From Zymomonas mobilis (GTDB lineage: Bacteria; Pseudomonadota; Alphaproteobacteria; Sphingomonadales; Sphingomonadaceae): DNA of 64,000 nt. Every line of letters begins with the position of its first letter. Within the stretch, counting starts at the first letter, position 1. The DNA is taken from contig NZ_VFOF01000001.1 in the NCBI RefSeq assembly GCF_006715975.1, forward strand, positions 1,064,001 through 1,128,000, in the 5' to 3' direction. Shown here one piece after another: positions 26,760-47,452 of the stretch. A program made the translations under genes and the position numbers. Under the pieces are notes generated by a model that saw only the letters and a list, made by a program, of their open reading frames with translations, was not told where the DNA came from and ran no database searches.

Positions 26760-26805
26760 GATTGATTGACCTCTCTCGTCCTTTCCGACTACGGGGGTTC
26801 TTTTG

Positions 26806-26960
26806 CATAGGGTTCCCTTCCAAGGAAGGGAAAAGGGAATAAGGTGTAAGGCCTTTGCTGCCCCTGCAACTGTAAACAGTCGAAACGCCGAAAGCCACTG
26901 GATAATGCAATCTGGGAAGGCGGCCATTTCTATGCTGTGAGCCAGGAGACCGACCCTATG
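26806..26960 (+). promoter_or_regulatory. Cobalamin riboswitch upstream of btuB
   Basis: The conserved core reads GCTGCCCCTGCAACTGTAA (from 26857), then AAAGCCACTGG (from 26891), CTGGGAAGG and the 3' B12-box part GCCAGGAGACC (from 26941). A terminal P1 helix closes it: CATAGGGT (26806-26813) with ACCCTATG (26953-26960). A 133-base leader follows before the btuB ATG, which has AGAGGGGGG as ribosome-binding site. Adenosylcobalamin binding is expected to reduce btuB expression. Confidence 0.95.
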
Positions 26961-27093
26961 TAATCGTTCCACGATCGGACAGGGGATTCTGATCGAACGA
27001 GGTAATTTCTTCCTCGCACGGGCGATAAATTGTGACCTTCAGGCCATATTGGTCTGTGGGGGTGTCTGGCTGTGACTAATAGAGGGGGGATCA

Positions 27094-39768: not shown

Positions 39769-39800
39769 AGAATGATCCATTTTAGATTTTATTGATAGAA

Positions 39801-39833
39801 AAAAGGCCACATCCGTTAAAGATGCGGCCTTTT
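39801..39833. terminator. Bidirectional terminator between YdcH-family gene and hsp20
   Basis: AAAAGGCCACATC (39801-39813) pairs with GATGCGGCCTTTT (39821-39833) with one wobble and a 7-base loop. A and T runs at the outside suit both strands. Confidence 0.88.
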
Positions 39834-39863
39834 CTGGTTATTTTGAGAAGCGTTTTTATGCCG

Positions 39864-40352
39864 TTACGCGGCTTTTTGCTCAACTTTTGCATTGACGATA
39901 TCGCCCTCGATTTTGGGCTGATCGTCCTTTGCGGCGCCGATTTCAATTTTCCGTGGCTTCTTCTGTTCGGGAACCACGCGATCTAATTCAATATTCAACA
40001 GACCATTCTGATAATCGGCACCCACAATTTTGATTGTATCCGCTAACTGGAAGCGTCTTTCAAAACTACGTTTAGCAATGCCGCGATGCAGATATTCACG
40101 CCCTTCTTTGTTCGTCGTTTCGGTTGCGCGCCCCGTTATTGTCAGGACGTTTTCTTGCACGGTTACATCAAGTTCATCTTTGGAAAAACCGGCAACAGCC
40201 ATAGAAATGCAATAACGGTTCTCGGCTAGCTTTTCGATATTGTAGGGGGGAAAACTTTCACTTTCACCGCGAGAGGCCAAGTCAACGAGACGGTTAATAT
40301 TTTCAAAACCAACAGAAGAACGTAAGAAAGGGGTAAGATCAAAAGCACGCAT
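39864..40352 (-). CDS. Small heat-shock protein, Hsp20/alpha-crystallin family
   Basis: ATP-independent holdase that binds unfolding proteins. The 162-residue chain has a short N-terminal arm, the alpha-crystallin domain at about 35-130 (YNIEKLAENRYCISMAVAGFSKDELDVTVQENVLTITG, RSFERRFQLADTIKIVGADYQNGLLNIELDRVVPE), and a C-terminal tail with the PRKIEI anchor (IxI-type motif). It has a 5' leader with ROSE-like structure, so translation is probably temperature-controlled. Single gene on the minus strand. Confidence 0.95.
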   Translation of the reverse strand: MRAFDLTPFLRSSVGFENINRLVDLASRGESESFPPYNIEKLAENRYCISMAVAGFSKDELDVTVQENVLTITGRATETTNKEGREYLHRGIAKRSFERRFQLADTIKIVGADYQNGLLNIELDRVVPEQKKPRKIEIGAAKDDQPKIEGDIVNAKVEQKAA

Positions 40353-40470
40353 ATTTTCTAATCCTTATATTAAGCGACTAAATTACATTGTCTGCATTAT
40401 GCCAGACGAACAAGTTATATGCCGATTGGCCATATCTCTTGTTGAGATTGAGATAATATAGGAAAAAGTG
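40353..40470 (-). promoter_or_regulatory. ROSE-like RNA thermometer in the hsp20 leader
   Basis: On the minus strand, UCGCU (plus 40373-40377) sits 7 bases before the ribosome-binding AGGA (plus 40362-40365). UCGCU pairs with AGGA leaving the G bulged, the hallmark of ROSE elements, and outer A-U and G-U pairs extend the stem. Two upstream hairpins are visible: GTCTG/CAGAC (40390-40407) and GCC GATT GGC with flanking pairs (about 40417-40435). AGGA lies 9 bases before the ATG. The exact 5' end is not determined. A CTTGAAA on the minus strand near 40475 could be part of a heat-shock promoter, but spacing is poor. Confidence 0.7.
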
Positions 40471-40741
40471 ATTTCAAGATTTTTGGATAAATTTTTTTAT
40501 ATATTTTTGTCTATTTAATTTTAGGATGAATAGGCGCTTTTAAGAGGCTCCCTTAATATGAGAAAAACGGCGTATTTCCTTGGTGGTAGACTGCGAGGCA
40601 AGGCCTTTGCCAGAGATTAAAAAAGCCTCTGACAGAATAACCCGCCAGAGGCTTTGAGATAATAATCAAATAATAAATTTAGATACCGCAAACGATTATC
40701 CCACCCCAAGAAGGGGCAGGAATAATTGTTTGGAATTTTTG
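40471..40741. other. AT-rich spacer upstream of the hsp20 leader
   Basis: The stretch of 389 bases between hsp20 and the S10 peptidase stop holds the hsp20 promoter and leader, then A/T tracts around 40485-40530, and at the far end the peptidase terminator (40619-40655). I see no additional gene. Confidence 0.6.
40619..40655 (-). terminator. Terminator of the S10-type peptidase gene
   Basis: AAAGCCTCTG (40622-40631) and CAGAGGCTTT (40646-40655) form a 10-bp stem with a 14-base loop. Read on the minus strand the stem ends in six T. It is about 87 bases beyond the stop codon. Confidence 0.8.
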
Positions 40742-46116: not shown

Positions 46117-47084
46117 TTAATTTCTGGGGGCCGCTGCGCGTCCCAAACGGTCATTGATGGCTTTTCCGATGCCGTTAAGCGGAATGGGGGCAATGGCGAT
46201 GCGTGCGTAGCCGCTTTTTTCGGCCTTATGGAGGGCTGAAAATAAATTGGCCGCCGCTTCGGTTAAATCGCCTGATGATGACAAATTATCATCGCCTGTA
46301 ATCTTTCCAAAACCGATATGCCATTCATCTTCGTCTTTTTTTGAAACATCTAATCGCACAGGTTGAGATGGGGCATAATGGCTGGCCATTTGTCCGGGGG
46401 CGACTGGATTTTGTCCGTTCGCTTTATATTCTACGATTGGCAAATGGGTCGCCGCTGCGATCTGTTCTGTGGTGATAGGCCCCGGTCGTAATATTTTTAT
46501 TTCATCCGCTTCGACAGAAATAATCGTAGATTCGATTCCTTTATCAGAAACACCCCCATCAAGAATGGCCGCGATTTTTCCATCGAGGGAATCTTTTACG
46601 TGAAGAGCCGTTGTTGGACTGATCGAACCGCTTTTATTGGCGGAAGGGGCCGCTAAAGGGCAGCCACAGATTTTGAGCAATTCCCGAATAACGGGATGAG
46701 ACGGCATTCTGACCGCAACTTTATCCAAACCTGCGGTCACAATAGAGGCAATTTTCGCTTCTTTTTTAAAGGAAGCACCAATGTCAAAGCACCCGGCCAA
46801 AATTTATCCGCTAAAGCCAAAGCGTCTTCATTGAATTCTGCGATATGCTCGGCCTGCGTCCTATCCGCGACGTGAACGATTAAGGGATTGAAGGACGGAC
46901 GACCTTTTGCCTGATAAATGCGGGCGACCGCTTCGCCGGATAACGCATCCGCCGCAAGGCCATAAACCGTTTCAGTCGGAAGGGCGACCGGATAGCCTTT
47001 CCGAATCAGTTGCACTGCCTTTTCAATGCCTTTTGGGTCACAGGGCAGGATTATAGTTTCAGTCGGAGAAAAAAACGCATTCAT
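46117..47084 (-). pseudogene. Sua5/TsaC-type L-threonylcarbamoyladenylate synthase split by a -1 frameshift
   Basis: Makes the TC-AMP intermediate for tRNA t6A37. The N-terminal part (47084 to 46737, 115 residues) holds the YrdC domain: PTETVYGLAADAL, IYQAKGRPSFNPLIVHV, KFWPGALTLVLPL. The rest of YrdC and the Sua5 C-domain lie in the -1 frame down to 46117 (RMPSHPVIRELL, PLAAPSANKSGSISPTTA, SHYAP). The frames meet at A AAA AAG (plus 46761-46767). A -1 slip there reads ...LPLKKEAKIASIV, the expected junction. Either one A was lost from the run or recoding is used. The activity is normally essential, so a simple dead gene is unlikely unless another copy exists. An inverted repeat TGACCGCA/TGCGGTCA follows 21 bases beyond the heptamer. 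Confidence 0.85.
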
Positions 47085-47260
47085 CCTTTTCGGCTATCCT
47101 CTGTCTGTTCGTTCTGCAAGTTTTCCCTATTTATCTGGCAAAAATCTTTTCTTTTTCGTGATCACAGACGCCATTTCCCTCTAATTAAAAAATAAACATA
47201 TAAACACATCTTTATATTTAGCTTGACCTTTGCCTCCTGATCGGAGAGCAAGAGGAAGGA

Positions 47261-47436
47261 TTAAGGTTCTTTGTTGCTAACAAAGCTAAGAGGGAAACTG
47301 GTGAAAAAAGATTTTTTAAAGCCAGTGCTGCCCCCGCAACTGTAAACGGCGAGCAAAGATCATTGTGCCACTGATATTGCAATATCGGGAAGGCCGATCT
47401 GAGGCGATGAACCGTAAGTCAGGAGACCTGCCTTAA
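47261..47436 (+). promoter_or_regulatory. Cobalamin riboswitch upstream of metE
   Basis: Conserved core GCTGCCCCCGCAACTGTAA (from 47327), then GTGCCACTG (47365), CGGGAAGGCCGAT and GTCAGGAGACC (from 47418). TTAAGG (47261-47266) pairs with CCTTAA (47431-47436) as P1. Its target metE encodes the B12-independent methionine synthase, so B12 should switch it off. A long hairpin follows (47453-47489). Confidence 0.95.
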
Positions 47437-47452
47437 ACCAGTCATCCATCCA

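Follow-up and report, generated by a model that had tools for sequence, protein, structure and literature searches.

The 5′ leader of the Zymomonas mobilis hsp20 gene is very likely a ROSE-type RNA thermometer, as judged from its sequence, its predicted folding and its comparison with related leaders, and its third hairpin probably masks the ribosome-binding site and releases it only on heating. Positions 40353–40470 of the window, by which we mean the whole 64,000-nt stretch of DNA that was analysed, make up the 5′ leader region of hsp20 on the minus strand, the leader itself spanning about 40443–40353. The features on which this reading draws are the following:

39796–39840, minus strand: terminator-like hairpin downstream of hsp20 (−22.8 kcal/mol and a T run; absent from the list of the terminator scan)
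39864–40352, minus strand: hsp20, small heat-shock protein of 162 aa (PF00011, E 2.8e-21)
40352–40350, minus strand: ATG of hsp20
40353–40443, minus strand: putative ROSE-type leader with three hairpins, predicted 5′ UTR of ~90 nt (fold z −4.18; 37.5 bits with our model R2, see below)
40357–40382, minus strand: hairpin III, presumed thermosensing; outer stem 40382–40378 with 40361–40357
40362–40365, minus strand: Shine-Dalgarno (SD) sequence AGGA, 9 nt 5′ of the ATG
40390–40407, minus strand: hairpin II, GUCUGGC-AUAAU-GCAGAC; a single surplus G (40403 or 40402) can bulge out
40409–40443, minus strand: hairpin I, inner part AUAU-G-GCC-AAUC-GGC-AUAU, bulged G at 40431 or 40430
40453–40478, minus strand: predicted heat-shock (sigma-32-like) promoter, CTTGAA at 40478–40473 and CCTATATTAT at 40462–40453
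40622–40655, minus strand: terminator-like hairpin 3′ of the upstream S10 peptidase gene (15-pair stem, then a T run)

An earlier note on this DNA had placed UCGCU seven bases before AGGA without giving a strand. The motif is indeed there, on the minus strand, where a 7-base spacer (40372–40366) separates UCGCU (40377–40373) from AGGA (40365–40362). Its proposal that UCGCU can sequester the SD around a bulged G agrees with the predicted pairing of hairpin III, in which UCGCUU (40377–40372) faces AAGGA (40366–40362) and G40375 bulges out, and with the conservation of this core described below. The two further hairpins that it had seen upstream lie at 40443–40409 and 40407–40390, the inner part of the latter being left open by RNAfold, and the gene downstream is hsp20, as it had said, carrying the only HSP20 (PF00011) match in the Z. 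mobilis genome. As to its leader of about 100 bases, the hairpins are present and the predicted UTR measures ~90 nt, but the distal part, 40470–40445, is probably promoter. Because the terminator-like hairpin at 40622–40655 separates the S10 peptidase gene from hsp20, the latter probably has a promoter of its own, and with a further terminator-like hairpin downstream it looks monocistronic.

ROSE-like elements are defined in the literature by a U(U/C)GCU motif that forms an imperfect helix with the SD within the 3′-proximal hairpin, with a bulged G, in a leader of two to four hairpins that typically precedes a small heat-shock gene (PMC3669281, PMC4166951, PMC11342760). The Z. mobilis leader combines motif–SD pairing, a predicted bulged G and three hairpins with a PF00011 gene downstream. 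A FourU thermometer, in which four consecutive U pair with AGGA (PMC4166951), was rejected, the anti-SD strand reading UC(G)CUU and not four consecutive U.

Motif and spacing, from which the earlier note had argued, are thus present, but they are insufficient alone. UCGCU..AGGA..ATG occurs twice in the 64-kb window versus 0.71 times expected, with at least two occurrences in 16 of 100 shuffles, and 12 times genome-wide versus 4 for the reversed pattern. Taken by itself, the motif is therefore weak evidence and close to chance, and these counts are what could be put forward for a fortuitous UCGCU near AGGA in an AT-rich leader. Of the 11 genomic sites other than hsp20 we inspected 7. ORFs of 5–17 codons follow three of these; the ORFs behind the other four are longer and were judged by eye not to be heat-shock genes, and the leaders have no common fold. 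The second match in the window (46755–46783, plus strand) has only a 17-codon ORF after it and was taken as chance.

Conservation at hsp20, on the other hand, exceeds chance in the sequences compared. We drew leaders from 59 genomes (that of the window included), taking the 30 best hsp20 loci, and from the best 80 of at least 591 named loci, so that the sample represents the closest relatives rather than a random draw; removal of two copies identical to one leader (L023) left 108 distinct leaders. U(C/U)GCU and an SD pairable with it around the G were found in 103 of the 108, with AGGA as the SD in 98 of these 103. Among the five leaders without the core (L008, L057, L068, L073, and L091), L057 and L091 read UAGCU, and the start codon of L073 may be misplaced. 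Outer pairs 1–4 of hairpin III are formed in 70, 76, 61, and 57% of the 103 core-bearing leaders, versus 53, 56, 34, and 35% when the 3′ arms are shuffled between leaders, a level reached in 0 of 2000 shuffles for each pair, although these shuffles ignore relatedness. With the core kept in this way, and with a covariance model free of the window's genus ranking the leader first in the genome (see below), a chance origin becomes practically negligible; comparison with related leaders is the decisive evidence against it.

For this comparison at the level of structure, we used two covariance models. In a MAFFT alignment of 33 leaders (A2), from which RNAalifold recovered only 5 pairs, hairpins I and III did not line up; R1, built on A2 with the window's genus included, is searchable, but its hairpin III pairs are off by one in many rows. 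An alignment of 9 leaders (A3) lost hairpin II and was dropped. R2 was built from A6, which consists of 27 leaders of other genera, none from the window's genus, anchored on the bulged G of hairpin I; the structure of A6 was set by eye, so that the alignment of held-out leaders (A7) is the better test, though itself fitted to R2. R1, run on 100 of the 110 loci, matched the leader in 86 (E ≤ 0.1), and under strict filters (E ≤ 0.01) it had hits in 67 genomes out of 147 searched from the order. In the 2.1-Mb Z. mobilis genome, where 150 of 312 first-look candidates were scored, the hsp20 leader came top with R2 at 37.5 bits (E 3.4e-5), and the runner-up had 14.8 bits. Three congeneric loci gave 39.3, 36.0, and 26.3 bits when searched as such. 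The whole-genome search of 40 relatives with R2 returned a match at E ≤ 1 in 30 and missed two of the congeners, G002 and G003, in which 101 of 307 and 101 of 297 candidates were scored. Of 77 held-out loci, 69 had their leader found by R2 at E ≤ 0.01, giving 70 rows (one locus with two). The same model finds leaders that the Rfam family RF00435 accepts. Together, these matches indicate that the Z. mobilis hsp20 leader is, by sequence and modelled structure, homologous to leaders across alpha- and gamma-proteobacteria, and they uphold the extension of the ROSE pattern to this organism that the earlier note had proposed, as do the conservation and the published features above.

Two of the leaders deserve separate mention. 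At L008:1936–2037 (minus strand), U(C/U)GCU is no longer present; this leader, a natural variant, is not found by R2 at E ≤ 0.01 but scores 52.2 bits with R1, whose training set contained it. In Alteromonas aquimaris (L039:1173–1245, plus strand), tandem hsp20-like genes each have a ROSE-like leader of their own, the second leader being matched by both R1 and R2 and followed by an ORF from 1240 that is, by eye, Hsp20.

In the 70 held-out rows of A7, 91.7% of pair cells hold standard pairs versus 72.4% after shuffling and 40–54% with slid partners, in an alignment that is model-fitted. Cells with changes on both sides number 279 versus 87.7 in shuffles, while the pairs showing a both-side change (18) are only slightly above the shuffled 15.8, 12 of 500 shuffles reaching 18. 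These data bear on whether the conserved block might mainly be a DNA or protein-binding element, such as a promoter or operator, with the hairpins as a by-product. Nucleotides conserved upstream of rhizobial hspA were initially interpreted as such (PMC4166951), and a conserved CTTGA box does lie just upstream; yet DNA binding has no need of the both-side changes with pairing kept that the held-out cells display, and the SD is itself part of the structure. We hold this explanation to be very improbable.

The CTTGA box itself is found 85–180 nt 5′ of the start codon in 95 of the 108 hsp20 leaders, versus 7.6 in mononucleotide shuffles, and an rpoH gene is present in the genome above the curated cut-off; the CTTGAA at 40478–40473 is suggested by these observations to be part of an RpoH promoter. 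From its position, the transcript probably starts near 40444, which would make 40470–40445 promoter and not RNA. The location of the box and the terminator-like hairpin upstream both accord with a transcript that would contain the hairpins. The gap from CTTGAA to CCTAT is 10 nt, shorter than in most relatives, and for this reason the exact −10 element and transcript start are uncertain. A sigma-70-like site within the leader (40425–40396) falls within the chance rate (2 found versus 2.3 expected).

We further compared the leader with the Rfam families, a scan that the earlier note had proposed and that proved negative at the Rfam cut-offs for all three ROSE models. The gathering-level scan of the 64-kb window returned no ROSE, nor did a scan of 601 nt at E ≤ 10, and RF00435 (ROSE, gathering 45 bits) had no match in the Z. 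mobilis genome at E ≤ 10. When a 104-nt leader stretch was run against 4227 Rfam families at E ≤ 10, the sole match was ROSE_2 (RF01832) at 17.5 bits (E 0.11), 47.5 below its gathering value of 65; its alignment, which extends from the bulged-G hairpin across the start codon to AUGCGU, keeps the register. The length of the scanned stretch thus matters, since only the 104-nt piece, and not the 601 nt, gave ROSE_2. The highest score of ROSE_3 (RF02523, gathering 43 bits) was 13.5 bits, at another place in the genome (with 150 of 443 candidates scored), and it did not match the 104-nt leader at E ≤ 10. The hsp20 leader is, by their cut-offs, a member of none of the three Rfam ROSE models. Elsewhere in the window, two cobalamin riboswitches (26793–26972 and 47247–47449, both plus strand) score 105.9 and 135.9 bits, well above the Rfam cut-off.

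Among relatives, the Rfam scan of 19 loci found no ROSE at E ≤ 0.1, and that of 20 named related loci at E ≤ 1 found RF00435 in two (L074 and L101) and ROSE_2 in one (L047, 24.8 bits, below cut-off). Genome-wide, 5 of 59 relatives have RF00435 hits above the cut-off, 8 in all, and none of the 59 has one for ROSE_2, E. coli being the one control genome over the ROSE_2 cut-off. Sub-threshold matches to the alphaproteobacterial sRNAs BjrC1505/SorX, of 36–38 bits, were also noted just 3′ of hsp20 relatives and facing hsp20:

L021:2035–2187, minus strand: BjrC1505/SorX-like match
L019:1241–1393, plus strand: BjrC1505/SorX-like match
L028:1333–1396, plus strand: BjrC1505/SorX-like match

The Z. mobilis leader can nevertheless be linked to RF00435, since intermediate leaders score with both RF00435 and R2, at 53.8 and 40.2 bits in G014, 52.9 and 37.2 in G020, 51.5 and 31.1 in G009, and 43.1 and 35.5 in G011 (in this last case below the RF00435 cut-off of 45); a Bradyrhizobium leader (L074) gives 71.7 and 27.2 bits. 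In three genomes (G033, G020, and G014) the RF00435 hits precede copies that are 43–50% identical to the window's Hsp20, each genome having also a copy that is 61–70% identical, and in G009 and G024 they precede the genome's best hsp20 match, itself 50% identical; one of the three hits in G020 has no adjoining hsp20 match. The leaders of closer copies (53–60% identical) are matched by RF00435 at best with 30.3 (G046), 27.4 (G035), 25.4 (G040), and 21.8 bits (G048), or not at all. Similarly, the leader of the closest copy in G020 (70%) is found by R2 at 58.3 bits and not by RF00435. RF00435-type leaders before less similar copies (43–45% identical) are located at G020:C1:2557459–2557552 and G033:C26:138073–138166, both on the plus strand. 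Judged by these matches, what RF00435 captures in these bacteria is one group among the hsp20 leaders, and the group found before Z. mobilis hsp20 is a different one.

Alignment of the leaders also uncovered a bulged G in all three hairpins. In the model rows, the bulge column holds G in 27 of 27 for each hairpin, which for hairpin I is so by construction because A6 was anchored on that G; among held-out rows with a letter in the column, G occurs in 69 of 70 (I), 50 of 52 (II), and 70 of 70 (III). A model-free scan between −108 and −56 (score ≥ 12), which may count either hairpin I or II, detected a bulged-G hairpin in 74 of the 108 leaders, versus 5, 9, and 3 with A, C, and T as the bulged base and 1.6 with G in mononucleotide shuffles. 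The shared unit is a short helix with a single bulged G, namely YGCC/GGG (I), CYGGC/GCRG (II), and UYGCU/AGGA (III). The upstream bulged G is already contained in existing alignments, since an unpaired G of this kind also stands in an upstream hairpin in the consensus lines of both RF00435 and ROSE_2, and a limited search of the RNA-thermometer literature turned up no discussion of its sharing across hairpins. It might be taken to mean that the upstream hairpins are temperature-sensing modules that open stepwise and thereby sharpen or tune the switch, and not inert scaffolds. We consider this doubtful; hairpin I of Pseudomonas ibpA was unresponsive to temperature in the structure probing reported in PMC3669281.

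We then turn to folding. None of 200 shuffles folds as stably as the 96-nt leader (−25.3 kcal/mol, z −4.18), whereas 17 of 200 do so for a 130-nt piece that also takes in 5′ flank and coding sequence (z only −1.41). In a 122-nt fold, the SD is unpaired with a probability of 0.01 at 20 °C, 0.02 at 37 °C, and 0.07 at 50 °C, and G40375 with a probability of 0.99, falling to 0.13–0.39 at 20–30 °C once the fold includes 60 nt of coding sequence. With these 60 nt, a different fold is predicted up to 30 °C, in which the SD is hidden too; we give this competing fold little weight. RNAfold melting over 20–60 °C predicts little opening of the SD in the Z. mobilis leader. Two ROSE leaders recognised by Rfam show no predicted opening either, and RNAfold does not form even their core pairs, so that the energy model, failing equally for them, is no test of melting. 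Across the 103 core-bearing leaders, the core pairs reach P > 0.5 at 37 °C in 47 (Y–G) and 52 (C–G). In silico removal of the bulged G lowered the energy of hairpin III from −5.8 to −9.6 kcal/mol, in agreement with published deletions of the bulged G, which repress or weaken such switches (PMC3669281, PMC11342760).

A folded 5′ UTR could also set a constant translation rate or mRNA stability and leave heat control to RpoH transcription alone. The heat-shock promoter box and the rpoH gene could suffice for this, and the folding predictions at 20–50 °C foresee no melting. However, across alpha- and gamma-proteobacteria the SD is accompanied by the conserved anti-SD core with its bulged G, a pattern more in keeping with a switch than with a passive UTR, and ROSE leaders of five Pseudomonas species conferred heat-induced translation on a reporter (PMC3669281). 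We deem a constant UTR distinctly unlikely and favor the thermometer, in which the opening of hairpin III with heat is inferred from the ROSE family. Under this model, RpoH would transcribe hsp20 upon heat shock from the promoter whose −35 box lies ~125 nt 5′ of the ATG. At growth temperature, the closed hairpin III would keep the ribosome off AAGGA, adding a translational gate to RpoH control, whereas at heat-shock temperature the weak bulged helix would open and Hsp20 would be made. Hairpins I and II may aid folding or mRNA stability while remaining largely closed throughout.

The Z. mobilis hsp20 leader is, in this light, a well-known kind of switch in a form that Rfam does not recognise, and the finding is an ordinary one. 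More than 40 ROSE candidates from alpha- and gamma-proteobacteria were predicted in 2005 (Waldminghaus et al., cited in PMC3669281 and PMC4166951), and the Z. mobilis leader or a close relative may already be on that list. In the open-access literature we found no thermometer in Zymomonas or sphingomonads, and where a paper has Sphingomonas together with ROSE and the RNA thermometer, ROSE and thermometer stand only in a reference. The main texts of two Z. mobilis papers are silent on the subject, that on 5′-UTRs (PMC5770649) containing none of the terms "heat shock", "Hsp20" and "thermometer", and that on transcription starts (PMC7566282) none of "hsp20", "heat shock" and "thermometer". Through our analysis, the single small heat-shock gene of Z. 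mobilis gains a likely heat switch, and ROSE-type leaders are shown to run through the Sphingomonadales, where RF00435 passes in the said 5 of 59 relatives and ROSE_2 in none; a broader Rfam family could be built starting from R1 and R2. The leader also bears on the thermotolerance of Z. mobilis, whose upper growth temperature rises by about one degree with raised hsp20 expression, as reported in PMC7002363.

Among known systems, PMC3669281 singles out B. japonicum ROSE1 and the leader of E. coli ibpA as those studied best, other ROSE-like elements have been reported before ABC transporter genes (PMC11342760), and an RF00435 hit before an hsp20 gene was printed for Gluconobacter oxydans (PMC5756330). 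With RF00435, that is, the rhizobial hspA type, the Z. mobilis leader shares the order of three hairpins, an unpaired G before CC in hairpin I, the pairing of U(U/C)GCU against AGGA with a bulged G, the extension to the start codon and the small heat-shock gene; it differs in lacking a match to that model at E ≤ 10 and in having an AU-rich hairpin III. ROSE_2 (RF01832) resembles it through the sub-threshold match in register, but this model has only two hairpins, versus three in Z. mobilis. The short ROSE-like thermometers of Pseudomonas ibpA likewise carry U(U/C)GCU, hold the SD in the 3′ hairpin and are transcribed by sigma-32, whereas they consist of two hairpins in a UTR of 61–62 nt (PMC3669281), as compared with three hairpins and ~90 nt in Z. 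mobilis.
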